A stretch of DNA of 64,000 nucleotides from Pseudanabaena sp. lw0831 (GCF_016584665.1 NZ_BBJB01000002.1:1-64000), one strand, 5' to 3'. Shown: positions 3,196 to 36,528, counted from the first letter of the stretch. Program-made: numbers and translations. The notes: generated by a model from the sequence alone, not told the origin.

Positions 3196-3248
3196 AAAAC
3201 CAAAAAAATAATGGCGGCGCTTCGCGCCGCCATTATTTTTTTGGTTTT
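3196..3248. terminator. Bidirectional terminator palindrome (GGCGC-TTC-GCGCC)
   Basis: Perfect 25-base arms surround the loop TTC between two convergent genes. The arms hold A-runs and T-runs on the outside of each stem, as expected for a terminator that works in both directions. Confidence 0.75.
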
Positions 3249-19407: not shown

Positions 19408-19632
19408 ATGCTAAAACCTATCTCTAATTATTTCACCATCGAAACTGAACAAGAAGACGATACTCGTTGGATTGCTGAAATCTTAGAAATTTCAGGGGTT
19501 CTTGTGTATGGCAACTCTCAACAACAGGCAATAACTAAAGCTCAAGCTCTAGCTTTGAGAGTCATAGCTGATAAATTAGAACATGGAGAAATGGCTTTTG
19601 GTTTGACGAGTTTTGAATTTGTTGCAGCATAG
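19408..19632 (+). CDS. hicB: HicB family antitoxin
   Basis: A 74-residue protein with the partial RNase H-like HicB fold: FTIETEQEDDTRWIAEILEI, then SGVLVYGNSQQQAITKAQAL. It lacks a clear C-terminal DNA-binding domain, as do the short cyanobacterial HicB proteins. It is expected to bind and inhibit the downstream HicA mRNA interferase. The two genes are 12 bases apart. The antitoxin is first, the order common in cyanobacteria. Confidence 0.8.
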   Translation: MLKPISNYFTIETEQEDDTRWIAEILEISGVLVYGNSQQQAITKAQALALRVIADKLEHGEMAFGLTSFEFVAA

Positions 19633-19644
19633 AGAATTTATCAA

Positions 19645-19857
19645 ATGAGTCACTGGTCATCAGTAAAAGCCAGAAAAGTATTATCTGGGCTAGAAAAAAT
19701 TGGATGGAAAGTCAAACGACAGTCAGGATCTCACAAAATTTTAGAGAGAGAAGGTTGGGAAGATTATGTTTTTGCTTTTAGAGACAGCGATGAAATTGGG
19801 ACAAAAATGCTTGCTCGTATAGCGAAGAAAACGGGACTGAAACCAGCAAACCTATAA
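19645..19857 (+). CDS. hicA: HicA family mRNA interferase toxin
   Basis: A 70-residue basic protein with the double-stranded-RNA-binding-like HicA fold. The hallmark GWKVKRQSGSHKILER includes the catalytic His of G-S-H. The C-terminus ARIAKKTGLKPANL is typical. HicA cleaves mRNA and halts growth until neutralised by HicB. Pairing with the preceding antitoxin is clear. Six bases separate it from the next gene, so the three may be co-transcribed. Confidence 0.85.
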   Translation: MSHWSSVKARKVLSGLEKIGWKVKRQSGSHKILEREGWEDYVFAFRDSDEIGTKMLARIAKKTGLKPANL

Positions 19858-19863
19858 GTAAAT

Positions 19864-20886
19864 ATGCCAATCTCGCCAGCAATTCGTCCCGAAGCCCTTG
19901 AACAGTGGCTTCCAGAAATGATCCAACAACATTATGTAGTGTTGCTACTACGGCGTATCGGGATGACGCGGCGCAGAGCCGATTGCTTTGTGCGACTAGC
20001 GCTCTACTTATTTTTAAAAGATTGCCAAGCGCGAAAGGTGCTTCCGAAACCACCACTTACAGAGTTATCGTTTCCACAAGGATGGGTTGAATGTAGTTGT
20101 CTCGAAGCCGCAGATGTGTTTTACAGCGACAAAGATCGCGGAGGCGATCGCTCGGCGGGGATGATGCTTAATAAGTTGGTTGATCTGGGGCTAATTCAAA
20201 AACAGTTTGACGGCAACTGCACCCAAGTAAAAATTCAACCACTGCCAGATCTGCTTAAAAGTGAAACTCTCAACTTAAATATAAGCTTTGAGATCGAGCC
20301 ATTTGACCCTCGCAGCGATGCAATTCCGATCGCAAATTTGTTAGCTAGTAACTACAACTGGCTCAATCGCAATAACGATGCAGTCACCTATCGCATTGCC
20401 AATATTCTCCGCGATTGGGCTAGTCAATATGCGACAGGCTTACGAGTATTGCGTCGTGGTGACAATCAAAACCCTGTTGGGTTTTATGCTTTCTATCCGA
20501 CTAAACGGGAATCAGAAATAAAGTTTTTTGAGCCTCCTAGTCGCGGACTGCATTTGAGTCAAGTTTCTGATATCGATCCTTTTCAGATGGCTTTGGCAGG
20601 AGATGAAACCTGTCAGTCTATTTTTGTGAGGAGTTGGGTGATTGATAGTGAATATCGACAGGCATCTCAGCCTAGCCTTTTGCTAGATTCTCAACAAACT
20701 CTCCAGAGAATGCAGCAAGATTTCCCGAATCTATGGGATATGTACACTTTAATCATTCACCCCAATTATGCCGCGTTAGCTGGAGCTTTAGGATTTCAGA
20801 AGACTAGTTCCGATCCGAAGATGCCTCTCTATTGGATGTATCAAGCAGTAGATCGCTTTCTCAAACTTGATATGCAAAAATTATAG
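19864..20886 (+). CDS. Conserved cyanobacterial hypothetical protein, 340 aa
   Basis: Not recognised with certainty. The N-terminal half has an Arg-rich helical region (RRIGMTRRRADCFVRLALYL) and a likely winged-helix-like segment (MMLNKLVDLGLIQKQF). The C-terminal half has strand-helix alternation (GFYAFYPT, YTLIIHPNYAALAGALGF) that could be an acetyltransferase-like fold. No catalytic residues are identified. It begins six bases after the HicA stop, so it may be co-expressed with the toxin-antitoxin pair. It ends at a bidirectional palindrome. Confidence 0.6.
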   Translation: MPISPAIRPEALEQWLPEMIQQHYVVLLLRRIGMTRRRADCFVRLALYLFLKDCQARKVLPKPPLTELSFPQGWVECSCLEAADVFYSDKDRGGDRSAGMMLNKLVDLGLIQKQFDGNCTQVKIQPLPDLLKSETLNLNISFEIEPFDPRSDAIPIANLLASNYNWLNRNNDAVTYRIANILRDWASQYATGLRVLRRGDNQNPVGFYAFYPTKRESEIKFFEPPSRGLHLSQVSDIDPFQMALAGDETCQSIFVRSWVIDSEYRQASQPSLLLDSQQTLQRMQQDFPNLWDMYTLIIHPNYAALAGALGFQKTSSDPKMPLYWMYQAVDRFLKLDMQKL

Positions 20887-20890
20887 CCGT

Positions 20891-20941
20891 AAACCCAAAA
20901 GAGAGTGGCGGCGCAAAGCACCGCCACTCTCTTTTGGGTTT
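20891..20941. terminator. Bidirectional palindrome (GGCGGCGC-AAA-GCACCGCC)
   Basis: Twenty-four-base arms pair with one mismatch around AAA, between convergent genes. The right arm touches the stop codon of the V4R-like gene. The arms start with AAACCCAAAAGA, similar to 30969-31021. Confidence 0.75.
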
Positions 20942-21516
20942 TATGTTTTGACTTCAACCATATATTGAATACGCTTTGAATTAAGATCCCACTCTGTCGC
21001 CTTAGCCATCAAATCTTGACCAGTGAGAGCAGAAAACCACCCTCCTAAAAAACCTGCCTCCACACTAAAAGATTTAACCTCAGCGTTAGTATTGATTTTC
21101 AATATTCCTGAATTCTCGATTGTCACTAGCAAAAGTCCATCTTGAGCATGAGTGAAATCAACAATGATTTTGCCTAGCCCATGTACTCCCCAAAGCTGCT
21201 GTAAGATCGCGAAAAACTCTGGAGCATTCATATTTGCGATCGCAGTTCCATAATAACCTTCAATTTCCTTAGAAACTCTAGAGTAAAAAGACTTGCCCCA
21301 ACTATATCCAAAGGTGTAAAAAGCCATCGAAGCAGCTTCCCCAGCCTCAGCCAATAACGTTTCATGAATGCAATTGAGCAAGACTTCTGGAATTGCGATC
21401 AAACGTTTTCCATCTCGATTGGCTAAAAGCCCAGAGGCTGAGTCAGACTGTACATATGCTCTGGGTGAAAAGTAGTTGGAGGGTAATGACGCAGGACGTA
21501 CTTTGGTTGAATTCAT
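20941..21516 (-). CDS. V4R-domain-like protein (degenerate), Pap-type cluster
   Basis: A 191-residue soluble protein. The C-terminal half follows the V4R fold: EAGFLGGWFSALTGQDLMA then a final strand IQYMVEV. The Cys residues that hold ligand or metal in many V4R domains are absent. V4R domains bind tetrapyrroles or hydrophobic ligands and include the 4-vinyl reductase subunit. In Synechocystis two V4R genes (slr0144, slr0147, from memory) belong to a photosystem II assembly operon with ferredoxin-like genes; this locus has the same elements. A good AAGGA ribosome site precedes the ATG. It is the last gene of the cluster. Confidence 0.7.
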   Translation of the reverse strand: MNSTKVRPASLPSNYFSPRAYVQSDSASGLLANRDGKRLIAIPEVLLNCIHETLLAEAGEAASMAFYTFGYSWGKSFYSRVSKEIEGYYGTAIANMNAPEFFAILQQLWGVHGLGKIIVDFTHAQDGLLLVTIENSGILKINTNAEVKSFSVEAGFLGGWFSALTGQDLMAKATEWDLNSKRIQYMVEVKT

Positions 21517-21554
21517 GATTATTTTCCTTAGAGATTTACAACAAAAAAGAACTA

Positions 21555-21590
21555 TTTTTTTGTGGCGCGGCAGAGATGCGCCACAAAAAA
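21555..21590. repeat. Hairpin between cluster genes (TGGCGC stem)
   Basis: TTTTTTGTGGCGC and GCGCCACAAAAAA enclose GGCAGAGAT. It separates two genes of one strand and may partly terminate transcription. Confidence 0.55.
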
Positions 21591-21599
21591 TAATTATTC

Positions 21600-22064
21600 T
21601 TACTTACCACTCATCATTTCATGAGCCATTTGCACATAGGGAGTCATCAATTCTACTTGATTTTCGGGCAGTCGCGCCTTAATTGCCTCCCCTAGAAACT
21701 TGTAGCCTTGATAGTTTAGCTGCATAGCCAGAAAGATATTCTGCTGCCAGTAAAGCACCCGATCTTTAAGCATTTCTGCATCTTCAAAGAGCATGGCAAG
21801 AGCAAGGCAGCGCAATCCCAAGGTCATATCACGTTGGCATCGATCTACACCCAGTGTATCCATCGGTCTAGCTTCAAAGCGATCTCCATTTCTCATAGCT
21901 GTCACGGCATGGCTAATGATTTCTGACTCCTTGCGCTCTATGGCGCTGTAGGCTAGTTTACGAGCCTGCCAAGTGGACAAAGTCTTGTCTAAAAGCTGAA
22001 AATCTTTAGCGTCAACGTAGTTTCCATCAGCATTCTTCAGTACGTTTTCTAGTAATGTAATCAT
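21600..22064 (-). CDS. Phycobiliprotein-like (phycobilisome domain) protein
   Basis: A 154-residue helical protein with the globin-like phycobiliprotein pattern. The segment RCQRDMTLGLRCLALAM aligns with the chromophore helix of allophycocyanin and phycocyanin (C-x-R-D-x3-x-L-R), including the bilin-attachment Cys and the Arg and Asp that contact the bilin. DAEMLKDRVLYWQQN matches the following D-x-L-x-x-R-V-L helix. The N-terminal part is shorter and diverged, so it is not a normal rod or core subunit. It may bind a bilin as sensor or carrier. Neighbouring genes encode V4R and ferredoxin-type proteins, as in the slr0144-0152 operon. A GAGG ribosome site precedes the ATG. Confidence 0.75.
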   Translation of the reverse strand: MITLLENVLKNADGNYVDAKDFQLLDKTLSTWQARKLAYSAIERKESEIISHAVTAMRNGDRFEARPMDTLGVDRCQRDMTLGLRCLALAMLFEDAEMLKDRVLYWQQNIFLAMQLNYQGYKFLGEAIKARLPENQVELMTPYVQMAHEMMSGK

Positions 22065-22215
22065 TTTTATTACCTCTGTTTAGTTAATTCTTAAAACTTG
22101 AAATAGACTTGAAATCAAACTTCTTCATACAATCTTAAAAACCTATGTCACCTTCTGCGCCATCGGTGCAGGTTTTGGATTTGGCTTTTAATGGTGTCAA
22201 GACACTTAAAATCAT

Positions 22216-22566
22216 TTAATCCCAACTAATCTTATCCTTGACGTAAGATATAGTCGATGAATTAGAAGTTTGGGTAGTGGATTGCCACTTCACTGTTGCA
22301 AATAGCTTCTCAACGGTCAGAGATTCAACATTATGTGAATTGCGAACGCCAACTAGTGGGGAAACATGCAGAACAACCCTCTTTTGCTGACTTGCTCTTG
22401 TACGGATATCAACAACAGTACTTGGGCGTTTACCAGTACTAGGGTTGAGCGATCGCTTAATCCAACGATTAAATCCACTCCAAATCCCCTTTAACCACCG
22501 CCACAACAAGCCCGATACATCTGTCTTCAAAATATTGACGGAACTGGGACTATTTTTCTTTTTCAT
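22216..22566 (-). CDS. Small basic hypothetical protein, 116 aa
   Basis: Not recognised. The protein is rich in Arg, Lys and Ser. An amphipathic stretch with several Trp residues (LLWRWLKGIWSGFNRWIKR) lies at residues 18-38 and could bind membrane or another protein. The C-terminus is Ser/Thr-rich and probably flexible. A strong AGGATAAATC site precedes the ATG. It lies 17 bases after the V4R gene in the same operon. It might be a linker-like partner of the phycobiliprotein-like product, but this is guesswork. Confidence 0.6.
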   Translation of the reverse strand: MKKKNSPSSVNILKTDVSGLLWRWLKGIWSGFNRWIKRSLNPSTGKRPSTVVDIRTRASQQKRVVLHVSPLVGVRNSHNVESLTVEKLFATVKWQSTTQTSNSSTISYVKDKISWD

Positions 22567-22583
22567 GATTTATCCTGCCCAAC

Positions 22584-23294
22584 TTAGGCTTTAACTAAAA
22601 GGTCAACTTCAAGGGGGATTTCTTCAGCACTGAAGCGTTGTTCGATCTCCGAAACAGTTGCGCCTGAAGACATCCAGAACTCGGCGGCGCGAATACGTTT
22701 CGCGGAGCCAACTAAAAAACGACAATAATCATTACCCATGGAATAGCATTGAACCTCTGTACTACTAAGATCTTTCTCGAAGATTACACTGAAGAATCCT
22801 GCTAATAGACCAGCATAAAGATGACATACTGGCTTACCAATTTGCCCCAAAGTCTTTGCCACAGCAGAGTCAAAGAGATCGACAAAAATAAAACCTTCTT
22901 TTAAAGAACTCATGTCTAAGCTCCATGTCCCCCAACCTTGAGCCGTTAGCGGCCACCACCAAGTTTCCATTGCAAAGGCAAGATTAGAGGTGGCTAAGGT
23001 CAGGTTGTAGTATTCCTTGAACCAGCTTGCGAACGCGATCGCATCTTGCTTACCCCAGTTTTGACCGATCATATAGAGTAGCCAACCAGCAGAGTCGCCC
23101 ACTTCATGCTCTAAACCCTTCAGTAAGGAAACGATAAAATCTTCACCTACCAAGAGATTGCGTTGCTTGTGATAGTCTTTAATCTCTCCTTCCTTCATAT
23201 TAAAATCAAAAAAGGTATAGCGGCTGTAATGACATACTTGCCATACTGATGGCATAGGCGTGGCTGGAGTCCGAAAGCTTGTAATCTCAGGCAT
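22584..23294 (-). CDS. V4R domain protein
   Basis: A 236-residue soluble protein. The V4R core is clear in the second half: LYAGLLAGFFSVIFEKDLSS, then VQCYSMGNDYCRFLVGS, where the two Cys residues occupy the usual ligand positions. The N-terminal half has an extra region with aromatic clusters (ETWWWPLTAQGWGTW). A small helical C-terminus (ATVSEIEQRFSAEEI) follows. V4R domains bind tetrapyrrole-like ligands. This copy keeps the conserved Cys pair, in contrast to the paralogue at 20941-21516. It is likely the slr0144/slr0147 counterpart. Confidence 0.8.
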   Translation of the reverse strand: MPEITSFRTPATPMPSVWQVCHYSRYTFFDFNMKEGEIKDYHKQRNLLVGEDFIVSLLKGLEHEVGDSAGWLLYMIGQNWGKQDAIAFASWFKEYYNLTLATSNLAFAMETWWWPLTAQGWGTWSLDMSSLKEGFIFVDLFDSAVAKTLGQIGKPVCHLYAGLLAGFFSVIFEKDLSSTEVQCYSMGNDYCRFLVGSAKRIRAAEFWMSSGATVSEIEQRFSAEEIPLEVDLLVKA

Positions 23295-23411
23295 GATCTA
23301 AATTTTCCTATTTAAAATTAGTTTTCAATTAAGTCCCTCAGCATAGTTAAGGAGTAAAACCAGAGCCTGTACTGCGCGGGTGGCAAAGGCTTCTAGGTTT
23401 TGCTTAGCTAC

Positions 23412-24416
23412 TTATTTGATGGCACTGCGGGTTAGTAAAGTTCCCATCTCCCTCTCAAATTCCCGATCAACCTCTTGCATCCTCTGTAAAGCGGAGCGTA
23501 GAATTAACTTGCCCTCATATACGAGAGTCTCCCCAGTAATCGGGTGAATCAGAGATTGTTGCGCCTTTTTACCGACCAATGACTCTAGCTCAGCTTCAGA
23601 ACCAACATATTTGCCTTTGGGGATTTCAACCACCAATCCAGCTTCAAGGATTTTACATTGACAGGCAAGACGAGCATTAGATTTCTCAATCCGCATTAGA
23701 TTTAAGGTAATCAGTTCTTGCTCAGTTGGTGGAGTGAGACATTCCATCCCTTCTTGAACAAAAACATGGCAGGTAGCGCAACGACCTTGCCCCCCACAAG
23801 CTTTTAAGATCTTGGCATGGTTGCTGAGCAAAGCACTGAGCAGGCGAGTACCTTTAGCAGATTTGGTGGATTTCCCATCGATTGTGAGTGCGATCGCATC
23901 ACCTTTAAGACTAGGAGCAGAAGATGATAAAGATAAAGCTTGCTTCTGGGCACGAATTACACTCGTCACATTTTGAATTACCTTTACAAATTGATTATGG
24001 TTGGCGGGGTCACTGCTGACTACATCATTAAACCCTTTCTTTTCCATAATCCAGTTACGGTAGAAGTCAGGGATCACAGCATCATGAGACACCATAATCA
24101 CTGGCAAATCTTTCCACTCTTGGTGACAGATACGATAGATTTCAAAACAGCTACTCTGATCGACGTTACCAAGCAACAATAGATCGGTGGAACCAAAAGA
24201 CATGGTTTCAATTAGTTCTGTGTATTCACCACAGATATAGATATTCCACTTGCCAATGTCTTGCACAGTCTGCAGCAACCGTTGCAGCACAATTGGATTG
24301 GATTCAGCAATCACGATCCTCAAGGTAGGATTATAAGGGCGATCACTCATTGAATTGTTGGAACTTTGCCCCGAACTTGACTGGTTTTTACTTTCGATAT
24401 GGTTAACTTGGTTCAT
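23412..24416 (-). CDS. Pseudo-receiver/[2Fe-2S] ferredoxin fusion
   Basis: A 334-residue protein with two domains. Residues about 30-155 resemble a response-regulator receiver (RIVIAESNPIVLQRLLQTV, then DLLLLGNVDQ, then LPVIMVSHD). The phosphoacceptor Asp is replaced by Gly in LLLLGN, so it cannot be phosphorylated normally. Residues about 165-275 are an adrenodoxin-type ferredoxin: KACGGQGRCATCHVFV gives three Cys, and ARLACQCKI gives the fourth. The C-terminus (about 280-334) is helical. The ferredoxin half resembles Slr0148 (from memory). The fusion suggests redox sensing coupled to a receiver-type interaction surface. The start is preceded by AAGGC. Confidence 0.85.
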   Translation of the reverse strand: MNQVNHIESKNQSSSGQSSNNSMSDRPYNPTLRIVIAESNPIVLQRLLQTVQDIGKWNIYICGEYTELIETMSFGSTDLLLLGNVDQSSCFEIYRICHQEWKDLPVIMVSHDAVIPDFYRNWIMEKKGFNDVVSSDPANHNQFVKVIQNVTSVIRAQKQALSLSSSAPSLKGDAIALTIDGKSTKSAKGTRLLSALLSNHAKILKACGGQGRCATCHVFVQEGMECLTPPTEQELITLNLMRIEKSNARLACQCKILEAGLVVEIPKGKYVGSEAELESLVGKKAQQSLIHPITGETLVYEGKLILRSALQRMQEVDREFEREMGTLLTRSAIK

Positions 24417-24479
24417 AATATTTGCCTTTTTTTAGATGGTTTCGCGATAATCTTGCACTATATTTAATCAACTTATTAA

Positions 24480-25325
24480 CTAAATCAAGGCGATTGCTTG
24501 CAGTTGAGAAGACAGTTTACTCCGCTGACCTTGGGCGTTCAGGATCATCGCCAAGACGTAATCGGTGGGAATGGGAGGACAAAATAAGTACCCTTGGTAA
24601 GTATCACAACCCAAATAAGTTACTTGTTCGAGCTGCTGAAGTGTTTCCACACCTTCAGCAACCACTTCTACTCCTAACTTTATTGCCATATCAACAATTG
24701 CCTCTAATATAATGGAAACTGATTTTTGGTATCGAGAGTCTTGATGCACAAGCCCTTGAATGAATCGCCGATCAATTTTGATAATGCTAGTGGGCAATTC
24801 AGATATGTATTCTAAAGAGCAATAACTAGTACAAAAATCATCTAAGGCAATCTTAATCCCAAGTTCGCGCAGCCCCTGAAGCACAAATTTAATATCAGCC
24901 ATATTCGTGATTGCGGAACTCTCCGTAACTTCAATGCCAATGCATGACGGTGGCAGATTATATTCTTGGAGTAAGGTTGCGATCACGGTCAAGCATTCCT
25001 TTTCTTGTAAATAACGGGTGGAAAAATTTAGGAATACGGGAACTGAAACGCCAAGCTCTTGCCAAGTCACAATTTGAGTAAGTGCTTTGCGAAGTAGCCA
25101 TTTGTGAAACTTGGCAACTAAACTAGTTTCACTAACCTCTAAAGCTCCAATAAATTGTGCCGTATCGACATTGCCAAGAGCAGAGGATTGCCATCGAGTT
25201 AGGGCTTCCATACTAACGATTTTATTGCTGCTGACACTACTTTGAAGCTGATAATGTAGAAGCAATTCATTGTTGTTTATTGCTTCTTCGATTAATTGGG
25301 CGCTAATCTCATTTGTGTCTTTCAT
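24480..25325 (-). CDS. EAL domain cyclic-di-GMP phosphodiesterase
   Basis: A 281-residue stand-alone EAL protein. The EAL motif is EALTRWQ. The metal and catalytic residues appear in CIGIEVTESS, KIALDDFCTSY (the usual G is Cys, the DD pair is kept), IIKIDRRFIQGL and VVAEGVETLQQLE. QGYLFCPPIP ends the domain. All residues needed for hydrolysis of cyclic di-GMP seem present. No receiver or PAS domain is attached, so control probably comes through protein partners in the cluster, which has two pseudo-receivers. In cyanobacteria cyclic di-GMP controls motility, aggregation and phototaxis. Confidence 0.85.
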   Translation of the reverse strand: MKDTNEISAQLIEEAINNNELLLHYQLQSSVSSNKIVSMEALTRWQSSALGNVDTAQFIGALEVSETSLVAKFHKWLLRKALTQIVTWQELGVSVPVFLNFSTRYLQEKECLTVIATLLQEYNLPPSCIGIEVTESSAITNMADIKFVLQGLRELGIKIALDDFCTSYCSLEYISELPTSIIKIDRRFIQGLVHQDSRYQKSVSIILEAIVDMAIKLGVEVVAEGVETLQQLEQVTYLGCDTYQGYLFCPPIPTDYVLAMILNAQGQRSKLSSQLQAIALI

Positions 25326-25407
25326 TTTGGGAATAACTGTTAGATGAATGATTGGATTGATTTGGGTGGGTAAAGATGGGTTCTCAGTGCCAAGTTAAGG
25401 CTTGTAG

Positions 25408-26235
25408 TTAGCCAAGAGAAATAATTTGATCGACTTGAATGGATAAATTACTACTCAGCACGATCGCAACATAACCACCAATGATGCGATCGCATTCCTT
25501 GAGAAATCCTCTAACCCAGAGCTTTAAACTTTGATACTGCTCATCAGTAAGTTGCTCGTCGGGAATATCTTCGCTGAAGTAAGAAATGCCCCCCGTATAT
25601 TCAACTGACCAGCATCCGATCCAAGGATGCTCTAGTACAGTAGCAGTAAGAGCTTTTTTCCAATAGTTACCCAGCACCATTTCACCGAAGTATTTCTTGC
25701 TAAAATCAGTGAGTTGGTTAAGTGCAGATATTGCTTGCTGATAGGTTAAACCTTGAAGAGATGCTTGTGGAAGAATCGCAGTAGCTACTTCTACAAATTC
25801 GTTAACGTTCTCTTTGCCAAGCAACATTTGTTGCAGTTTTGCTTTTATCAAATGTATATTCTGAGGAGAACTGCTTAAAACTTCATAGACCCCCTTAGAG
25901 ATTACCCAGTCTCGAAAAAATTGGTTGACGCTAATTCCATCAGTCAACAAAATTATCGGCACATTTTGAAATTGATTGGCATATCTACGATACGCTTCTA
26001 AAATACTGATTTCTGGCAAATTACCGAGAATGAATAAATCAGGAGTTTGTAAACCTATGGCTTGATCGATCTCCTCACAATTGCCACAACCCATAACCAG
26101 ATGATGATCTTTTGTTAACGCATCAACCATTGAACGGCGAATTGACACATTTGATTCGGCAAGAACAACTACAAGCGATCGCTGATTAGTTGCACTTATA
26201 GTTACATTTTGGCTTTTTTTGCTTAGTAGTTGCAT
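25408..26235 (-). CDS. Pseudo-receiver protein with unknown C-terminal domain
   Basis: About 275 residues from the ATG at 26235, which lies after AGGAAA; the frame is open further upstream. Residues about 15-135 repeat the receiver-like pattern of the ferredoxin fusion: VVLAESNVSIRRSMVDALT, DLFILGNLPE, VPIILLTDG and YEVLSSSPQN. Again Gly replaces the phosphoacceptor Asp in LGN. Residues about 140-275 are a separate domain not recognised (LTYQQAISALNQLTDFSKKY; HPWIGCWSVEYTGGISYF). The shared LGN receiver indicates the two proteins are paralogues that may bind a common partner. Confidence 0.7.
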   Translation of the reverse strand: MQLLSKKSQNVTISATNQRSLVVVLAESNVSIRRSMVDALTKDHHLVMGCGNCEEIDQAIGLQTPDLFILGNLPEISILEAYRRYANQFQNVPIILLTDGISVNQFFRDWVISKGVYEVLSSSPQNIHLIKAKLQQMLLGKENVNEFVEVATAILPQASLQGLTYQQAISALNQLTDFSKKYFGEMVLGNYWKKALTATVLEHPWIGCWSVEYTGGISYFSEDIPDEQLTDEQYQSLKLWVRGFLKECDRIIGGYVAIVLSSNLSIQVDQIISLG

Positions 26236-26335
26236 TTTCCTGTATTCCTTCCTTAGCTCGACTGAAAGAATCATAGGGTAGCAACTGGATAAAGCTTTAA
26301 CTCGTTTTTTACAAATTAGTCGATTTTTGACATAA

Positions 26336-26400
26336 GTTTTCAACCAACAAAAAAGAGTTGCGGCGCGAAGCGCCGCAACTCTTTTTTGTTGGTTGAAAAC
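26336..26400. terminator. Perfect 31-bp palindrome (GCGGCGC-GAA-GCGCCGC)
   Basis: Two exact 31-base arms flank GAA, ending directly against the stop codon of the response-regulator gene. This is the longest perfect stem of the family. It lies between two genes of the same strand, so it should reduce readthrough. Confidence 0.75.
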
Positions 26401-27159
26401 TTACTTGGCTATAACTATACTTTGAAATTCTTTAGGAGTAACGCCCACCAACTTTAAGAAATGGCGGTTAAATTGGCTGTGAGTCGTAAACCCACATTCC
26501 AGAGCCACATCGTTAATTAGTTGATCCCGCTGTTTTAATAGGAGTTTTGCTTTTTCGATACGTTGCTGAATAATATACTGGTATGGTGAGCAACCAATTT
26601 CTTGACGAAAGAATCGACAGAAGTAAGCAGAATTCATGCCAATAGCTCCAGATAGCACATCCAAATTAATTTCATGGTGAAGATGATCTTCAATATAGAC
26701 AAGCGTAGATTTTAGACGATAGCTAGCAGAAGCTTTTTCAGCTAAGGATTGATCTTTTTCGAGTTCAGATTTATTCTTTTGAGCCGCATGAGTCGATAGA
26801 GCTACTGCTATTGAGGAAAGAAGTTGTTCACGGCGAAAAGGCTTGAGTACATACCCCATAGGGCTGGTGAGTTGCGCCCGTTCAACCGTTTCGCGATCGC
26901 TAAAAGCTGTGAGGTAAAGGAAGGGAATATTGTATAAAGATTGAATATGGGCGGCAGTTTCGATCCCATCAATTTCTCCCTTAATCCGAATATCTAGCAA
27001 GATCAGATCGGGCTGTAATTCGATGGTTTTTCTAATTGCGGTTTGACCATCAGATGCGATCGCACAAACACAATATCCCTCATCCTGTAAAAGTTGAGAA
27101 ATATGCTGAGCCACCAATCTTTCATCTTCGACAATCAATGTTTGAATGGGCATATTCAT
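26401..27159 (-). CDS. Response regulator with AraC-type DNA-binding domain
   Basis: A 252-residue protein. The receiver has the acidic pair VEDER, the phosphoacceptor in LILLDIRIKGEIDG, Thr in LTAFSD and Lys in LKPFRRE. A linker of about 30 residues leads to an AraC/XylS helix-turn-helix pair: LDVLSGAIGMNSAYFCRFFR and INDVALECGFTTHSQFNRHF, ending with VTPKEFQ. It is a normal phosphorylatable regulator. The histidine kinase gene 138 bases upstream is the obvious partner. Two ATG codons are close; the first is used here. Confidence 0.9.
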   Translation of the reverse strand: MNMPIQTLIVEDERLVAQHISQLLQDEGYCVCAIASDGQTAIRKTIELQPDLILLDIRIKGEIDGIETAAHIQSLYNIPFLYLTAFSDRETVERAQLTSPMGYVLKPFRREQLLSSIAVALSTHAAQKNKSELEKDQSLAEKASASYRLKSTLVYIEDHLHHEINLDVLSGAIGMNSAYFCRFFRQEIGCSPYQYIIQQRIEKAKLLLKQRDQLINDVALECGFTTHSQFNRHFLKLVGVTPKEFQSIVIAK

Positions 27160-27236
27160 TCATAAACAACTTTTTTGAAATTACCGCACATCGCAATTAT
27201 ATCACTTAGATAGCATTGAAAGTTCTACATGTTTTG

Positions 27237-27270
27237 GCGCAGCAATAACCAATTTTGGGATTTGCTGCGC
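27237..27270. repeat. Short inverted repeat
   Basis: GCGCAGCAA and TTGCTGCGC are separated by 16 bases, between kinase and regulator genes of the same strand. The meaning is unclear; it may be a weak terminator. Confidence 0.4.
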
Positions 27271-27296
27271 TAGCGGTGCGGTGATTTTCCTTTATA

Positions 27297-30200
27297 TTAC
27301 GCAAGATTTGGGAAAGAGATCCGAATCATTAAGCCATTTTTGCCATCATAGATCAAATTCCCTTCTAATTGTTCGGTTAAGCTTTGAATTAGTTGTATTC
27401 CCAAACCTTCCGAATTTTCTAGCTCGAAACCCTCTGGTAGTCCCACCCCATTATCAGATACAGTCAGAATTATTTGGTGGGTTTCTTGAATGAGACTAAT
27501 CTTGATCTGACCATGCTTTTCAGAGAAAGCATACTTCAAGGCATTGGAAACTAGCTCATTAATAATTAAGCCCAATGGGATCGATTGATCTAGAGATAGA
27601 AAAATATCTCCAACCTCTATCTCTAGATGGATCAGTTCTACGCTAATTCCGTAGCATTCAAACAGGTTGGCAGTTAAGTTGCTAATGTAGTTATGGAAAT
27701 CAATATGTGCAAGATCATCACTCCGATAAAGTTGTTCGTGAATCAGTGACATAGCGAGAATACGATTTTGATATTCTTCGGTAAGGATCTTAATCTCAGA
27801 TGGAGCATTACGGAACTGTAAGTATAGAATACTAGACATGACTTGCAGGTTGTTTTTGACTCTATGGTGAATCTCCTTGAGTAAAACTTTTTTCTGGTTC
27901 AATTCATTCATCAGTTGCCGTTCAAATTGCTGACGATTATGCAATTCGATCTGGACTTGTTCATAGAGACTAGCTTGTTGAATCGCGATCGCTAATTGAT
28001 TGGCAATTTGTTTTAATAAATCTACTTCCTCTTGTTGCCAGTGACGATATTGAGCGCAGGAATGAACTATTAATAGTCCCCATAACTGATCGTTTTTTTT
28101 ACAATCAGCACGATTGATTTCTTGAGGCTTTCCCGAATCAGTATATTGGATTATTGGAATAACAATTTGAGATTTAATGCTAGCTAGTTTAACAAACTTT
28201 TGGGAGTATTCATTTGAAGTTACATCTGAACCATCTAGTACAACATCGCGGCTGAAATTAAGGTGGTAATTAATGGACTTAACGGCTATGTCAGAAGAAT
28301 AAAGGGCAAGATCGTGGTTAAGATTAAGGTGATAATTAATTGCCTCAATCGTAAAATAATTATCTGCGATATCCATATCAATAATTGATAGATATTCGGG
28401 GTTGACCATTTCTTTCACAACTTTGGTAAAACCATCTATGAATTGAAAGATAACAACGCGATCGCCATTTAACAATCTTTTGATTTCATTAACAGCGGTG
28501 GTCAGGATCTCGTTTATATTGAGGGATTGGTGAATTTGTTGGGTAATATGTGTCATGAAGTGTTGACGCTCCATTTGCTGCTTTAATGTCGCCGCTGTCT
28601 GGCTCAGAGCTTCTCGGCTTTGGGTTATTTCGATTTCGATTTGTTTGCGCTGGGTGACATCTTGAGCAAGGGACAACATAGAAATCAGGTTTCCATTCTC
28701 ATCCATAAGTACTGAGTTGTACCATTCGCAATGGATGACTGTGCCATCTTTTTGGTAGTTGCGATTTTGGCAGGTTTGAGGAATGCCTTTCATCAATAGT
28801 TCTGCAATCTTTTTTACATGTGGTATATCATCCTCAAAGATGAGTTGGCACTCATAAATCCCTTTGCCTAAGACTTCCTCGGCTTTCCAACCAAATATTT
28901 TTTCAGCTTGCTGTGACCAGTATTCCACCCGAAATTCTCGATCCCAACGAATAGTTGCTAAAGGAGAGTTCTCAATATGATAGTTCAATTCTTTTTGCGA
29001 TCTTGCTAACTTAAACTCAGCCATTTTGCGATCGCTAATATCTCTTTGCGCGCCAAAGTGTCCAGTTATTCTACCTTCTTGATCGTATAAGCAGATATAG
29101 TCTCCTTCTACCCACATTTGAGAACCATCAAGTCGCCTTTCGGTTGTATCTACATACAATCTTCCTAGGTCAAAAAGACTTCTCCAAGCAGCTTTACCTT
29201 GCTCTATATCATGAGAAAAGAAATCTATAGGAGTAGCACCTAAAAGCTCCTCTTCCTTTGCCTTATACTGATCGAGCATGGCTTGGTTGGCTCTAGTTAT
29301 CCTGTGGTGTGAAAAAATATAATCAAGCGCCGCTTCTTTATCAATGCTGTTATCCCAAGTAATTGGCTGATCTAACATCATAAAGAAAAAGCCTTCTAAG
29401 GAATTATTGAAAAACAAATCAAGCAACTGTTTGCTCTCAGCAAGAGATCTCTCAGCTTGTTTGCGATCGCTGATATCAGTCAATGTGCCAATGTAGCCAG
29501 TTACAGTACCACTAGCATCAACTTCCTTTGCTACTTGAACGTAGTACCAATTAATGCTGCCATCTGGACGTAAATACCGTCCCTCACTTTGATTAATAAT
29601 CGCACTGGAAGAAGCAAATCCTTCAGACCAATGGGCAATCATATATTCTCGGTCTTCTGGTGGTAAGGCTTCCATCCATCCAAAGCCTAATGCAGATTCT
29701 TTCGATCTACCTGTCATCTCAGACCAGCGATCATTGACATAGATGCAGTTCAAAGGTTTATCAAAACGAAAGATCCCCACAGGACTAAACTCAGAGAGTA
29801 CTCGATAGCGAGTTTCACTTTCTTGGAGAGCAATTGTGCGTTGCTCCACCCGCATCTCTAGTTCTTGATTTAATAAATGTAACTCTTGAGTTGCGCGATC
29901 GCGCTCTAAAGCAATTCCTGCAATATTTGCAGCTAGTGACACAATTTCTAGTTCTTGGGCTTTGGGAGTATAAATTTCGCGGTGATACACTCCAAAAGCA
30001 CCTAAGATAAGACCTTCACTGGTTATGATGGGAAATGACCAACAAGCACGTAATCCATGCTCTAGAGCCAATTCCCTATAGTCCTTCCATAGGAAATCGG
30101 TGGCAATATCGGAAACAATTACAGGCTCTTTGCGAAAGACTGTCGTACCACAGGAACCCACACCCTCGCCAATAGATATGCCATCGATTGCTTTCATATA

Positions 30201-30908
30201 GGATTCTGATAACTGAGGAGCCGAACCGTGGTGTAGTTTTCCATGGCGATCGCAAACTAAAATCGAACATAGAGCATTACCTAGCTGCGACTCGATCGCG
30301 AGAACCAACATATCTAGAATTTTAGAAAGCTTTTCACCTTTAGCAATCTTTTCTAAAATCGCATTCTGAATTTTCAACAAATTCTCATTAGCTTGGCGAT
30401 CGCGTAGTTCTTTATGCAACTGCCTCGATAACAAGTTATGGATAGACAGTAGAAAATCACTGCTGTGCTGAGGTTTCTCTACTCCTCCAATTTCATGTTT
30501 TTGTAATTTGAGTTCTGTTTCAGCTAATTTTTGTTTTAGTGCAGCCTTTGCGATCGCCTGACCAATGGCAAAAGATATTAGTTCGGGAGTCAGTGTTTCT
30601 TTAGCAAGACAATCTTCAGTATTTTGGCTAACGATATCCGCATTCTTGGCTTCACATAAGATCACCACAGGCACAAAAGCTATGTTGATTTGCAGGAGTA
30701 TCTCTCTATCAATCGGGTTGGATAATTCCCAATCTAGGACAATACATGCAGATGGATCTTGTTGGTAGGTGGCTAAGGCTGCGGCGGCTGACTCGCATCG
30801 CTGGATTTGATCGGAATATTGGCGATCGCTACTCCATAGATGACTGTAATCAAGGTTACTTGTAACAATCAAAATCCTAAAATTATTGTCAGCACCTAAA
30901 CTAATCAT
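27297..30908 (-). CDS. Multi-sensor histidine kinase (receiver-GAF-PAS3-GAF-HisKA_2)
   Basis: About 1203 residues, soluble. Domain order (numbered from 30908): receiver-like region about 8-125, with a possible phosphoacceptor in CIVLDWEL; GAF about 175-340; three PAS/PAC units about 350-480, 485-625 and 630-755 (each ending near DISDRK or DVTQRK); a second GAF about 775-985; and a HisKA_2-type dimerisation helix with phosphorylatable His in LLKEIHHRVKNNLQ. The ATP-binding domain has INELVSNALKYAF, DNGVGLP and SEGLGIQLI. The second GAF contains an insertion with a duplicated INYHLN phrase. No Cys for a bilin was identified in either GAF. The frame extends to 30977, but that start lies in a palindrome. 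Confidence 0.88.
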   Translation of the reverse strand: MISLGADNNFRILIVTSNLDYSHLWSSDRQYSDQIQRCESAAAALATYQQDPSACIVLDWELSNPIDREILLQINIAFVPVVILCEAKNADIVSQNTEDCLAKETLTPELISFAIGQAIAKAALKQKLAETELKLQKHEIGGVEKPQHSSDFLLSIHNLLSRQLHKELRDRQANENLLKIQNAILEKIAKGEKLSKILDMLVLAIESQLGNALCSILVCDRHGKLHHGSAPQLSESYMKAIDGISIGEGVGSCGTTVFRKEPVIVSDIATDFLWKDYRELALEHGLRACWSFPIITSEGLILGAFGVYHREIYTPKAQELEIVSLAANIAGIALERDRATQELHLLNQELEMRVEQRTIALQESETRYRVLSEFSPVGIFRFDKPLNCIYVNDRWSEMTGRSKESALGFGWMEALPPEDREYMIAHWSEGFASSSAIINQSEGRYLRPDGSINWYYVQVAKEVDASGTVTGYIGTLTDISDRKQAERSLAESKQLLDLFFNNSLEGFFFMMLDQPITWDNSIDKEAALDYIFSHHRITRANQAMLDQYKAKEEELLGATPIDFFSHDIEQGKAAWRSLFDLGRLYVDTTERRLDGSQMWVEGDYICLYDQEGRITGHFGAQRDISDRKMAEFKLARSQKELNYHIENSPLATIRWDREFRVEYWSQQAEKIFGWKAEEVLGKGIYECQLIFEDDIPHVKKIAELLMKGIPQTCQNRNYQKDGTVIHCEWYNSVLMDENGNLISMLSLAQDVTQRKQIEIEITQSREALSQTAATLKQQMERQHFMTHITQQIHQSLNINEILTTAVNEIKRLLNGDRVVIFQFIDGFTKVVKEMVNPEYLSIIDMDIADNYFTIEAINYHLNLNHDLALYSSDIAVKSINYHLNFSRDVVLDGSDVTSNEYSQKFVKLASIKSQIVIPIIQYTDSGKPQEINRADCKKNDQLWGLLIVHSCAQYRHWQQEEVDLLKQIANQLAIAIQQASLYEQVQIELHNRQQFERQLMNELNQKKVLLKEIHHRVKNNLQVMSSILYLQFRNAPSEIKILTEEYQNRILAMSLIHEQLYRSDDLAHIDFHNYISNLTANLFECYGISVELIHLEIEVGDIFLSLDQSIPLGLIINELVSNALKYAFSEKHGQIKISLIQETHQIILTVSDNGVGLPEGFELENSEGLGIQLIQSLTEQLEGNLIYDGKNGLMIRISFPNLA

Positions 30909-30968
30909 CGCAGAAGCCCACCGTAAAAATAATATTGTACTAACTACCGCAGTTAGTGGTACAAAGCC

Positions 30969-31021
30969 AAAACCCAAAAGATAGTTGCGGCGCTTTGCGC
31001 CGCAACTATCTTTTGGGTTTT
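30969..31021. terminator. Perfect 25-bp palindrome (GCGGCGC-TTT-GCGCCGC)
   Basis: Exact 25-base arms, AAAACCCAAAAGATAGTTGC and onward, flank TTT. The right arm overlaps the stop codon of the upstream J-domain gene. Probably terminates it. Confidence 0.75.
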
Positions 31022-32045
31022 ACCGCTGAAATTGCGATAAAAACTCTAACATCAACTCCTCTTCTGTCATTTGCTGCTGCATCAAATCAGTGGGACCTCT
31101 CAAAAACTCTTGAATCGTGATGCGGCGATCGCGAAAATCAAGCACAAATTTATGTAGTTGTTCAACGACTTCGACATGAGCCTCAACCTCAAATAAAGCC
31201 TCACCAATAGGATCGCCGCCATATTTAGTAATCTTCTTAAAAACAGCAGTCATTTCACCCTGTTGAGTTTTCTTTGTGAGTTTAAGTTGCTGCTTGAGAG
31301 TAGTAAGCTGCTCCTTAAGAAAAGAATTTTCTGACTCCACTTTTGCGCAATGTCGGGTCAGATCATCGGAACTATCGCGATCGATCAGTGCTTCCAGTTC
31401 TTGCTGCTTCTCAATCTCCAAAAGTCTCGCCAAGTCGCCATTTTGATAAGCTAGATTAATTTCCTTCATCACCTCAGTCCGAAAAGCTTTTTCCACTTCA
31501 TCAGTAACTTTGTCAGGATGAAAGCGATCGGCAAGACGCAAAAAAAGCTGGCGAATTTTTTTTAGATCGTCGCGATCGGGTCTTGCAATATCTTCCATGA
31601 CTTCCTGATGAGATCTCCCCTCATAGCCTCTCCATTCCGTCTCTTCCTCAGAATCATCAACTTCCACATCAGCACTAGAGGGTAACTGCTGAGGACTGAT
31701 CAGCCCATCTGCTTGGAGATGGTAGTAAACTGACTCAATATCTTTTCGAGATTTCTTCCCCAACTTTCTAACAGCAAAGATTTCCTTAAATACATCATGG
31801 ATTTGGCGATCGAGTTCCAATATTTTTTGACGAAAAGGGGCGATGCGCTGAGCAATCTGAATCCCAACGTCCTTAATGCTATCGTTGAGATTGTTTAACT
31901 TAGTACGGTTTGACTCAATTTGTTTGAGTAATTTCTCATTTTCTTTTTCCAGAAAATTGAGCCGATTCCGCAAGTCAGAAAGACCAAGGCTACCTTGAGA
32001 AGGTATAGCTGGAGAAGGATTAGAGGTTTTAGATTGTCGCGCCAT
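31020..32045 (-). CDS. J-domain protein with coiled coils
   Basis: A 341-residue protein. Residues about 20-75 are a coiled coil. The J-domain-like part (about residues 160-215) has the DnaJ hallmark HPD in LRLADRFHPDKVTDEVEKAF. A second coiled coil (about 235-265) follows. The terminal 70 residues are helical and include a FLRGPTD segment. No Gly/Phe or zinc region is present, so it is a class III co-chaperone or a specialised Hsp70 recruiter. It lies upstream of the kinase cluster, separated by a terminator. Confidence 0.8.
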   Translation of the reverse strand: MARQSKTSNPSPAIPSQGSLGLSDLRNRLNFLEKENEKLLKQIESNRTKLNNLNDSIKDVGIQIAQRIAPFRQKILELDRQIHDVFKEIFAVRKLGKKSRKDIESVYYHLQADGLISPQQLPSSADVEVDDSEEETEWRGYEGRSHQEVMEDIARPDRDDLKKIRQLFLRLADRFHPDKVTDEVEKAFRTEVMKEINLAYQNGDLARLLEIEKQQELEALIDRDSSDDLTRHCAKVESENSFLKEQLTTLKQQLKLTKKTQQGEMTAVFKKITKYGGDPIGEALFEVEAHVEVVEQLHKFVLDFRDRRITIQEFLRGPTDLMQQQMTEEELMLEFLSQFQR

Positions 32046-32678: not shown

Positions 32679-32702
32679 TAGTGATTTAGTGAGGTCTTGC
32701 GA

Positions 32703-32933
32703 ATGAAATATCTAGCGCGAATTACATTGGATTCTCAAGTGATGGGTGGTAAGCCTTGCATTCGGGGAATGCGGGTGACTGTGGGTACATTGGTTGGACT
32801 ATTGGCAGTTGGACATTCGGTTGAAGAAATTTTAAATGCTTATCCTTATTTAGAGAAGGAGGATATTATGGCGGCGTTGTCCTATGCGGCTTGGCGGTCT
32901 GAGGAGGTTGAGGTTGCTTTGGTGTCGGCATGA
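32703..32933 (+). CDS. DUF433 antitoxin
   Basis: A 76-residue protein. The signature ITLDSQVMGGKPCIRGMRVT is that of DUF433, a winged-helix-like antitoxin. YPYLEKEDIMAALSYAAW is the usual second half. The ATG at 32703 follows GAGG by eight bases; an upstream TTG is possible. The stop overlaps the next start by four bases (ATGA), the standard arrangement with DUF5615 toxins. Confidence 0.9.
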   Translation: MKYLARITLDSQVMGGKPCIRGMRVTVGTLVGLLAVGHSVEEILNAYPYLEKEDIMAALSYAAWRSEEVEVALVSA

Positions 32934-33301
32934 AGATCTTGATTGATATGAATTTGTCGCCTGATTGGGTAAATTATTTTGCAGCATCTGGAATAGAAGC
33001 TATACACTGGTCAAGAGTGGGTAGCGCATCGGCAAAGGATCGAGAAATTATGGAATATGCTCCAGCCAATGGTTTTATTGTGTTTACGCATGATCTTGAT
33101 TTTGGGGCAATTCTGGCGGCGACTCAGGCTGATGCGCCTAGTGTGTTACAAATTCGTACTCAGGAAACTTTTGCTGGTGTAATTGGAGATGTGGTAATGG
33201 CTGGTATCGCACAGTTTCGTGAAGAGCTTGAAACTGGTGCGTTAGTTTCTATTGATATGCAGCGATCGAAGGTAAGAATTTTACCAATTCGCAAAAATTA
33301 G
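32930..33301 (+). CDS. DUF5615 PIN-like toxin
   Basis: A 123-residue PIN-like nuclease (Mut7-C type). The conserved opening MKILIDMNLSPDWVNYF has the first acidic residue; IEAIHWSRVG, DREIMEYA and FIVFTHDLDFG carry the other acidic residues of the active site. The family is paired with DUF433 antitoxins and is thought to cleave RNA. Translation is coupled to the antitoxin by a four-base overlap. It is followed closely by the heptanucleotide repeat and the LRR-Roco gene. Confidence 0.88.
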   Translation: MKILIDMNLSPDWVNYFAASGIEAIHWSRVGSASAKDREIMEYAPANGFIVFTHDLDFGAILAATQADAPSVLQIRTQETFAGVIGDVVMAGIAQFREELETGALVSIDMQRSKVRILPIRKN

Positions 33302-33357: not shown

Positions 33358-36300
33358 ATGAATGATGCAGAGCTATTGGCAATAATCGCACAAGCAGAAC
33401 GTGAGGGCTGGACAGAACTCGATCTATCGGGAAACGATCTGTCCGAGTTACCTATGGAAATTGGAAAGTTAACACAACTTGAGACTTTGATTTTGGGAAA
33501 GAGGCTTGAAGATTCTGAAAAAGTAAGAAATCGCTATCTTCAAAAGATTTCGGGCAATAATTTAAAAATGCTTCCACTGGAACTATTGAATTTGCCTAAC
33601 TTACGTAAGTTGGATCTAAGTGGCAACCCTTTGGAGAGCATTCCGATTGTGATAACTCAAATGTTGCAATTAGAAGAACTCTCTTTACTTCGGGTAGCGC
33701 TAAATAAAATACCAGATGAGATATCCAACTTAGTCAATCTCAGACAGCTTGACCTCCGTTACAACAAAATCACTCAGATACCAGATGCATTAGCAAATTT
33801 AGCTAATCTCACACAGCTTGACCTCCGTTCCAACCAAATTACCCAGATACCAGATGCAATCACCAACTTAGCCAATCTTACACAGCTTTACCTCAGTTCC
33901 AACCAAATTACTCAGATACCAGATGCAATTGCCAACTTAGCCAATCTTACACAGCTTTACCTCAGTTCCAACCAAATTACTCAGATACCAGATGCAATTG
34001 CCAGCTTAACCAAGCTTACACAGCTTTACCTCAGCTCTAACCAAATTACTCAGATACCAGATACGATCATCAACTTAGCCAATCTTACTAGCCTTGACCT
34101 TTCTTATAATCAAATTAAGGAAATTACAAAGCAAGTTTTATTATTACCAAATTTACAGAAATTTTATTTGGAAGGAAGTCAGCTTCTCGAACTAACAAAA
34201 CTATATGCACAAAAAAATAATCTTACTATAGCGCCAGAAATTCTTTCGTCAAGTAATGATAATGGACAAAGTGCATTTGATTATGTCAGTCAACTAATAC
34301 TAGTAAGTAATCGACCACTACATGAAGCCAAACTCTTACTGATCGGACAAGGAAGTGTCGGCAAAACATCTCTAATGGAAAGGTTGATTCGCGATCAATA
34401 TGACAAAAATCAAGTTCAAACTGATGGACTCAATGTCGAAACTTGGAACGTCGAGGTCAATAGCAAAGACATTCGCCTCAATGTTTGGGACTTTGGCGGA
34501 CAGGAAATCTATCATGCCACCCATCAATTTTTCCTAACCAAGCGTAGCCTCTATCTGCTAGTTTGCAACTGTCGCACCAGCGAAGAAGAGAACCGCATCG
34601 AATATTGGTTAAAACTGATCGAAAGCTTTGGCGGTAAATCACCTGTGATTATTGTCGGCAACAAAAAAGACGAACAACCCCTCGACATCAACCGCAAGGC
34701 TCTCCGCGAAAAATATCCCAATATCAAAGCAATTATCGAAACATCTTGCTCAAAGAATGAAGGAATTGATGAACTTCGCGCCGCTATTTTGAAGCAAGTT
34801 GGCGACCTCAAAGAAGTCTATGATCTGCTTCCCTTGACATGGTTTGAAGTCAAACAACAACTCGAATCCATGCCCGAAGACTTCATTACCTACAATCGCT
34901 ACCTCAACATTTGCCACGAAAATAAAATCCCCGAAGAACAAAACCAAGAACAACTAATTGACCTGCTCCATCGTCTCGGCTTAGTTCTCAACTTCCGCGA
35001 TCACCCCATCCTCAAGGATACCAACGTTCTTAAACCCAACTGGGTGTCAGAAGGCATTTATGCCCTGCTCAGCGATGAAGAACTCAAAACCAAAACCAAA
35101 GGCATTTTCACCCCCGCAGACCTCACCCGCATCCTCGATCCAGAACGCTATCCCACCAAGCGCCACACCTACTTAATCGAATTAATGAAAGAATTCGAGC
35201 TTGGTTTTGCATTAGCCTGTCACCCACCTCAATTCCTAATCGCGGGACTATTGCCAAAAGATCAACCAGACAAAACCGAACTCCAAGGCGAAACCCTCGA
35301 ATTTCAATACCATTACAAAGTTCTCCCTGAAAGCATCATCTCTCGCTTCATCGTCAATGAACACGATCGCATTCACAACCATACCTACTGGCGCAGTGGC
35401 GTAATGCTGCAATACCAAGAAAACAACGAAACCTACAACATCGCCCGTATTAAAGCCGATCCTGAAGACAAAAAAATCTTCATCGCCATTAGCGGACGCA
35501 AAGAAACCCGCCGACTATTTTTAGGTGTTCTCCGCGACACCTTCAAAAGAATCCACAACACCCTCCCTAACCTCGAAATCACCGAATGGGTTCCCGTCCC
35601 CAATCATCCCAAACACGATCCGCTCAAATACACTGAACTCCTTGGACTTGAAGCAATGGGTGAAACTAACAAAATAATTGGTGAACTCAAACTAAAACTC
35701 GATTTACGTCAATTACTAGACGGCTATGAATCCTTAGAATCTCGTCAAAAAGTGATCAGAGGTGATGACATTAGTAGTATTGAAGATAGGCGATCGCGCA
35801 ATGAAAAAGCTGAAAATCGAGGCGACACCTATCACTTCTACGCAGAAACAGGACAGGTAATTACGGGCAGTGTAAAACCCGCAGGAAACAATATTGGAAC
35901 TCAGAACAATAACCTCAGTCAAAACCCTGTACCCGAAGTATCACAACCAAATAAAACCAACAGCGCAACTAAACCCATGAAAACAATCCTCATGCTAGCG
36001 GCAAATCCTAAAAATTCAGTCTCTCTACGACTACAAGAAGAAGAACGCGACATCAAAGAACGTCTACGCCTCGCAGGTTATGGCACAGAACCCATCAAAA
36101 CTGCTGTGGCTGTTCGTCCTAGAGATATCCAGCAAGCCATGCTAGACTTCAAACCGCAAATCATTCATTTCTCAGGGCATGGAGCCGATGAAGATGGATT
36201 AGTATTTGAAGATATTAATGGACAGTCTAAATTAATTGGTGGAGAAGACTTAGCCGATCTCTTTGACTTATTTAGCGATCGCATTGAATGCGTTGTCCTC

Positions 36301-36528
36301 AATGCTTGCTATAGCGAAACCCAAGCCGAAGCAATCCGCCAAAACATCAAATATGTAATTGGCATGAATCAAACTATCGACGATCTCGCCGCCATTGAGT
36401 TTGCCGTTGGTTTTTATGCAGCGATCGGTGCAGGAGAAACTTACGAGTTTGCCTTCAAACTAGGCTGTAGCGCTATCCGCCTAGCAGGAATTAAGGAATA
36501 TACAACTCCTCAGCTTTTGAAGAAATAA
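33358..36528 (+). CDS. LRR-Roco GTPase fused to CHAT protease
   Basis: A 1056-residue protein. Leucine-rich repeats occupy about residues 15-280, with several near-identical 23-residue units (LYLSSNQITQIPDAI). The Roc GTPase follows: P-loop GQGSVGKT about 330, switch motif WDFGGQE about 378 and NKKDE about 435. A COR-like region spans about 500-780. A linker with the phrase DTYHFYAETGQV leads to a CHAT domain at about 874-1056. The catalytic His lies in HFSGHG (about 941) and the Cys in LNACYS (about 984). CHAT proteases are caspase relatives used in bacterial immunity and type III-E CRISPR. The architecture suggests a ligand-sensing GTPase switch controlling proteolysis. There is no membrane segment. 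Confidence 0.92.
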   Translation: MNDAELLAIIAQAEREGWTELDLSGNDLSELPMEIGKLTQLETLILGKRLEDSEKVRNRYLQKISGNNLKMLPLELLNLPNLRKLDLSGNPLESIPIVITQMLQLEELSLLRVALNKIPDEISNLVNLRQLDLRYNKITQIPDALANLANLTQLDLRSNQITQIPDAITNLANLTQLYLSSNQITQIPDAIANLANLTQLYLSSNQITQIPDAIASLTKLTQLYLSSNQITQIPDTIINLANLTSLDLSYNQIKEITKQVLLLPNLQKFYLEGSQLLELTKLYAQKNNLTIAPEILSSSNDNGQSAFDYVSQLILVSNRPLHEAKLLLIGQGSVGKTSLMERLIRDQYDKNQVQTDGLNVETWNVEVNSKDIRLNVWDFGGQEIYHATHQFFLTKRSLYLLVCNCRTSEEENRIEYWLKLIESFGGKSPVIIVGNKKDEQPLDINRKALREKYPNIKAIIETSCSKNEGIDELRAAILKQVGDLKEVYDLLPLTWFEVKQQLESMPEDFITYNRYLNICHENKIPEEQNQEQLIDLLHRLGLVLNFRDHPILKDTNVLKPNWVSEGIYALLSDEELKTKTKGIFTPADLTRILDPERYPTKRHTYLIELMKEFELGFALACHPPQFLIAGLLPKDQPDKTELQGETLEFQYHYKVLPESIISRFIVNEHDRIHNHTYWRSGVMLQYQENNETYNIARIKADPEDKKIFIAISGRKETRRLFLGVLRDTFKRIHNTLPNLEITEWVPVPNHPKHDPLKYTELLGLEAMGETNKIIGELKLKLDLRQLLDGYESLESRQKVIRGDDISSIEDRRSRNEKAENRGDTYHFYAETGQVITGSVKPAGNNIGTQNNNLSQNPVPEVSQPNKTNSATKPMKTILMLAANPKNSVSLRLQEEERDIKERLRLAGYGTEPIKTAVAVRPRDIQQAMLDFKPQIIHFSGHGADEDGLVFEDINGQSKLIGGEDLADLFDLFSDRIECVVLNACYSETQAEAIRQNIKYVIGMNQTIDDLAAIEFAVGFYAAIGAGETYEFAFKLGCSAIRLAGIKEYTTPQLLKK

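Follow-up and report, generated by a model that had tools for sequence, protein, structure and literature searches.

A Divergent BBAG/V4R/Fe-S Gene Cluster with Asp-Less Receivers and an Embedded EAL Gene in Pseudanabaena sp. lw0831

Introduction

Do the genes of an slr0144-type cluster serve photosystem assembly alone, or can they also work in signalling? The functions of the slr0144-slr0149-type genes and of the BBAG globins, kin of the light-harvesting phycobiliproteins, are not known, which lends interest to a locus of Pseudanabaena sp. lw0831 where such genes stand together with signalling genes. Rockwell et al. 2023 traced such clusters, as lineages, to bilin-synthesis clusters of heterotrophs and reported that BBAG/V4R/Fe-S clusters are duplicated in some cyanobacteria, that the slr0150-slr0152 genes are often missing from other genomes, and that BBAGs with a CxRD motif bound bilins in E. 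coli (PMC10151467). In the literature searched, no account of the gene combination described here was found. In this study, the window is the whole 64,000-nucleotide stretch NZ_BBJB01000002.1:1-64000, and positions are counted from its first letter. The term class II was coined in this analysis for BBAG/V4R/Fe-S clusters that bear a pseudo-receiver.

Results

A preliminary description placed a photosystem-assembly-type gene set, merged with a signalling cluster, at 20941-27159. Gene calls and a Pfam profile search confirmed the gene content, with each named gene at or near its expected position. The V4R, phycobiliprotein-like, ferredoxin-like and small basic genes were all recovered, by Pfam, homology or, for the small basic gene, position (V4R-B without a Pfam match). 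They share the minus strand with two pseudo-receiver genes, an EAL gene, a REC-AraC gene and a giant kinase gene, as had been proposed. The extent required correction, since the kinase gene lies just outside that span and the true unit continues to about 31018. The features are as follows.

20893..20940, no strand: left junction palindrome copy (palindrome search; the same palindrome occurs at the relatives' empty site)
20941..21516, minus strand: V4R-B-like protein, 191 aa (homology, no Pfam match)
21600..22064, minus strand: phycobiliprotein-like globin (cyanobacterial BBAG) with CQRD (PF00502, 1.5e-11)
22216..22566, minus strand: small basic protein (position of the small gene in most clusters)
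22584..23294, minus strand: V4R-A (PF02830, 3.5e-20)
23412..24416, minus strand: Asp-less pseudo-receiver fused to a 2Fe-2S ferredoxin (Fer2, 8.5e-9; degenerate receiver ahead of Fer2)
24480..25325, minus strand: predicted stand-alone EAL phosphodiesterase (PF00563, 1.3e-60)
25408..26235, minus strand: pseudo-receiver with helical C-terminal domain, class II first gene (homologues, model fold)
26349..26387, no strand: perfect palindrome, terminator-like hairpin, between REC-AraC and the module (palindrome search)
26401..27159, minus strand: response regulator REC-AraC (PF00072, 4e-22; PF12833, 1e-21)
27297..30977, minus strand: sensor kinase GAF-PASx3-GAF-HisKA_2-HATPase, 1226 aa from TTG (Pfam domains)
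30972..31018, no strand: right junction palindrome copy, strong terminator-like hairpin (palindrome search)
31020..32045, minus strand: DnaJ-like gene, upstream flank of the block

Read 5' to 3' on the minus strand, the order is DnaJ-like, kinase, REC-AraC, pseudo-receiver, EAL, pseudo-receiver-ferredoxin, V4R-A, small basic protein, globin and V4R-B. The small basic protein is poorly conserved. V4R-B was found with V4R-A as the query and aligns with the V4R-B of other clusters, at 63% identity to locus L060 and 44-51% to other class II homologues. Its gene is truncated at the 3' end, with the last ~28 residues missing, and stops at the left palindrome.

The genome carries three V4R-pair clusters: a canonical one on contig C29, a class II cluster on contig C7, and the window copy. 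The canonical pair is present in nearly all of 22 relatives from the genus, and half of them additionally carry a C7-type cluster; none yielded a copy like that of the window with V4R-A as the query. Trees of V4R-A and of four concatenated proteins placed the canonical clusters apart from class II, and joined the window copy to Chamaesiphon and to L060, its sister module from the uncultured cyanobacterium PMM_0082, with 99-100% support. Within class II, the Pseudanabaena C7-type, Picosynechococcus and G227 clusters fall outside this group. V4R-A is 71% identical to that of L060, 60-71% to other class II proteins and 48-54% to canonical cyanobacterial V4R-A. The class II loci (L021-L032 except L022, L060-L067 and L124) come from other Pseudanabaena, Chamaesiphon, Picosynechococcus PCC 7117 and PMM_0082. 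The module gene order was found again in at least 18 other loci, so the arrangement is far beyond chance. Full-length relatives of the first gene were present in 4 of 386 sampled genomes of the phylum.

The window copy groups a BBAG globin and a 2Fe-2S protein with a pair of V4R proteins from different clades, and so belongs to the BBAG/V4R/Fe-S clusters. It is a paralogue of the canonical slr0144-slr0152 (pap) cluster, in a separate clade, and not its orthologue. The likeness to slr0144-slr0152 that had been noticed thus holds for slr0144-slr0149, where the Fe-S protein, the two V4R clades, the phycobiliprotein-related globin and the small gene are homologous throughout. It does not make this the canonical cluster, which lies on contig C29, and the window copy is a third, divergent paralogue. 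The first gene of the window module encodes an Asp-less receiver where canonical clusters have another N-terminal domain, and the copy differs further by its receiver-fused ferredoxin, internal EAL gene and upstream kinase and AraC genes. No slr0150-slr0152-type genes (ferredoxin, TPR, Ser/Thr kinase) were found between 20 and 32 kb of the window. V4R/Fe-S/globin clusters were also seen in Opitutales, Acidobacteriota, Thiomargarita, Methylococcaceae and Comamonadaceae (L068-L084), several of them next to unidentified, very large ORFs of 1300-2000 aa.

In every class II locus whose 5' end was covered, a gene for an Asp-less receiver with a helical C-terminal domain directly precedes the ferredoxin gene. 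The phospho-Asp position was Gly in all eight aligned first-gene proteins. The model of the window protein has a receiver fold (Z about 17 in a fold search) and a well-predicted C-terminal domain; the matches to the whole protein were filled by receivers, so the search reports on the receiver part alone. Judged from homologues and a Shine-Dalgarno-like sequence, the ATG at 26235 is a more likely start than the TTG at 26343. The gene at the first position of canonical Pseudanabaena clusters shares only the C-terminal domain, at about 26-29% identity. The canonical first genes of L022 (7445-8506), L040 (7167-8237) and L038 (6889-7695) encode a ~125-aa N-terminal domain that gave no Pfam match and no meaningful PDB relative by sequence; their C-terminal domain is common to the class II pseudo-receiver protein.

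The second pseudo-receiver, which forms part of the ferredoxin protein, shares ~35% identity with the C7-type receiver and 27% with that of the neighbouring first gene. It has the same Gly at the phospho-Asp site, and all four Cys ligands of the 2Fe-2S centre are kept. The structure model of the fusion was of low confidence. Other class II modules likewise have a pseudo-receiver gene ahead of the ferredoxin gene, but none of them has a receiver on the ferredoxin, so that the fusion was seen only in the window copy. These results do not fit a merger with an outside signalling cluster where the pseudo-receivers are concerned. Since one is the standard first gene of class II, that part of the supposed merger is conserved; the other is a domain of the same type, carried by the ferredoxin. 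Published pseudo-receivers respond to ligands without phosphorylation, namely to quinones in CikA and KaiA and to c-di-GMP in ShkA (PMC12632262). Like the KaiA and CikA domains, those of the window are cyanobacterial, with a receiver fold that lacks phosphorylation chemistry and a proposed redox-state input, whereas they belong to a stand-alone adaptor-like protein and to a ferredoxin, and are only putative ligand binders.

The globin retains the bilin-attachment motif CxRD, as CQRD. The motif is kept across class II except in Picosynechococcus, and it is absent from both Pseudanabaena canonical globins examined, including the canonical copy of the same genome, which has lost it. From the motif, the window globin would be expected to bind a bilin.

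Within the module, conserved genes flank the EAL gene on either side, sharing its strand and leaving only short gaps; this arrangement was seen only in the window copy. In an alignment to 4RNI and 4RNH, all catalytic residues were present (the EAL Glu, Asn, Glu, DD, Lys, Glu and Gln). In these respects the protein resembles the EAL phosphodiesterases MorA (4RNI) and DosP, whereas it stands alone with no sensory domain of its own, has the loop DDFCTSYCS instead of DDFGTGYSS, and is only predicted to hydrolyse cyclic di-GMP. The two cysteines in this loop (DDFCTSYCSL) are a possible redox switch. The best match in the genus was 38% identical, and no close homologue was found in the sampled genomes of the phylum.

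The synteny comparison divided the proposed combination. The pseudo-receiver gene is conserved beside the V4R and globin genes, but EAL, AraC and kinase genes are absent from beside the module in nearly all class II relatives, and none of those loci has an internal EAL gene or an upstream kinase and AraC pair. The exception is L060, the closest locus, with a receiver-EAL gene directly downstream, 115 bp away on the same strand; this was one of 18 other class II loci checked. Immediate neighbours elsewhere were transporters, SMC, helicase, aminotransferase and similar genes. In L029 and L031, a kinase gene and a REC-GGDEF-EAL gene lie upstream in divergent orientation, and in L025 an EAL protein gene lies 3.9 kb from the module. 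Outside the window, three independent class II contexts thus have an EAL gene within 6 kb, where about 0.67 would be expected; the corresponding count for the nine canonical loci was zero. This small enrichment is suggestive only, because the 6-kb limit was set after the fact and the expectation relies on a rough frequency of one EAL gene per ~250 kb, taken from a genus search.

REC-AraC has an intact receiver and an AraC-type DNA-binding domain. Its single full-length close relative (76%) is in G009, without the module; that homologue (L123, G009:C315) adjoins remnants of a HisKA_2-type kinase and a second, GAF-type kinase. The window kinase has an alternative ATG start at 30926. Bilin binding by its second GAF domain was considered, as the domain is cyanobacteriochrome-like, but no Cys-His pair was seen by eye at the usual place. 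The palindrome at 26349-26387 separates REC-AraC from the module, which makes a single transcript doubtful, and it may well divide the block into two transcripts.

In the three closest genomes (G017, G008 and G019), the genes that flank the block (19864-20886 and 31020-32045) are adjacent, ~40-55 bp apart, with one palindrome copy at the empty site, and the surrounding proteins are 91-98% identical. The nine genes therefore form one block of ~10.1 kb (about 20893-31018), with a palindrome copy at each end. This dispersed palindrome of ~39-47 bp has arms around GGCGC..GCGCC that vary together, is often terminator-like and occurs in about 135 copies in the genome; it may be a bidirectional terminator or a REP-like element. 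Copies in the window were seen at 3203, 20897, 26349 and 30976. The hairpin at the right junction isolates the upstream DnaJ-like gene.

No integrase, transposase or recombinase was found among the ORFs of the block, and its GC content and codon usage are those of the host. The block is therefore described as absent from relatives and not as a typical mobile island. Gain in the window genome is the simplest origin, retention there with loss from the closest relatives is possible, and misassembly at both palindromes is unlikely. Chamaesiphon was dropped as a donor because a flanking gene of L060 is closest to Pseudanabaena (70%), which makes ancient retention possible. Near the block, a HicB/HicA-type toxin-antitoxin pair (19408-19857; HicA PF07927) is seemingly absent from this position in the three close relatives, where the gap is ~220 bp. 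On the other side, an LRR-Roc-COR GTPase gene with a CHAT protease-like C-terminus (33358-36528) adjoins a DUF433/DUF5615 toxin-antitoxin-like pair (32697-33301).

Discussion

We consider it an evenly balanced possibility that the block, whether gained or retained, holds a bilin- and redox-sensing paralogue wired to cyclic di-GMP hydrolysis beside a kinase/AraC pair. The core proteins (pseudo-receiver protein, ferredoxin, V4R-A, basic protein, globin and V4R-B) would probably assemble in the cytosol into a complex holding a 2Fe-2S centre and a bilin or another tetrapyrrole. The two Asp-less receivers may be phosphorylation-independent docking or ligand-responsive modules, and could relay bilin or redox state to the stand-alone EAL protein encoded among them. 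The EAL enzyme, so controlled, would hydrolyse cyclic di-GMP, and the kinase and REC-AraC would most likely set transcription of the module. This wiring is supported by the three clusters, the conserved class II order, the trees, the empty site, the Gly site, CxRD and the EAL residues. It is also favoured by the L060 gene, the proximity of EAL genes and the published ligand-responsive pseudo-receivers. It is weakened by the many relatives without EAL, AraC or kinase genes, by the REC-AraC of G009, by the intervening palindrome and by the shortened V4R-B. Coupling of the module to cyclic di-GMP, as the preliminary description suggested, is plausible as a hypothesis; one independent arrangement, that of L060, supports it. 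We put forward only tentatively, as unlikely though worth stating, the broader claim that BBAG/V4R/Fe-S proteins are a bilin-and-redox sensor complex in which Asp-less receivers, as adaptors, control cyclic di-GMP hydrolysis; such a complex would be a photoreceptor or redox receptor class drawn from phycobiliprotein relatives and unrelated to phytochromes and cyanobacteriochromes.

The block may instead unite chance neighbours without functional coupling, namely a BBAG/V4R module with its own pseudo-receiver, an unrelated EAL gene and a kinase/AraC pair. This fits the unrelated housekeeping or transport genes beside most other class II loci, as well as the module-free REC-AraC homologue and the palindrome ahead of the module. 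Yet the EAL gene lies within the module and in line with its conserved neighbours, the receiver-ferredoxin fusion occurs only in this copy, and the sister locus also has an EAL gene immediately downstream. We hold chance assembly to be possible, on the unlikely side.

A photosystem II assembly or repair operon like slr0144-slr0152, with extra regulators, is very unlikely. The V4R, globin and Fe-S proteins are homologous to those of the slr0144-type cluster, which was reported to stabilise photosystem II intermediates (PMC4853703), but it may be adjacent genes that account for the photosystem role, and BBAG functions are unknown (PMC10151467). The window copy also falls in a different, sparsely distributed class, differs at its first gene and lacks the slr0150-slr0152-type genes. 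Because the canonical cluster is on another contig, an assembly role cannot be assumed for the copy in the block, and that label is unsupported. A decaying or non-expressed acquired cassette is likewise highly improbable: the truncated V4R-B means that the cassette may be partly decayed and the block is in one genome only among those searched, but all other frames are intact, including the 1226-codon kinase, and neither the Fe-S ligands nor CxRD nor the EAL catalytic residues have been lost.

The block suggests that an slr0144-slr0149-type gene set can work as a sensor. A paralogue with pseudo-receivers and an embedded EAL gene brings an output that is concrete and can be measured, from only seven proteins that would have to be reconstituted. 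Were the coupling real, relatives of the phycobiliproteins would serve in signalling as well as in light harvesting or assembly.
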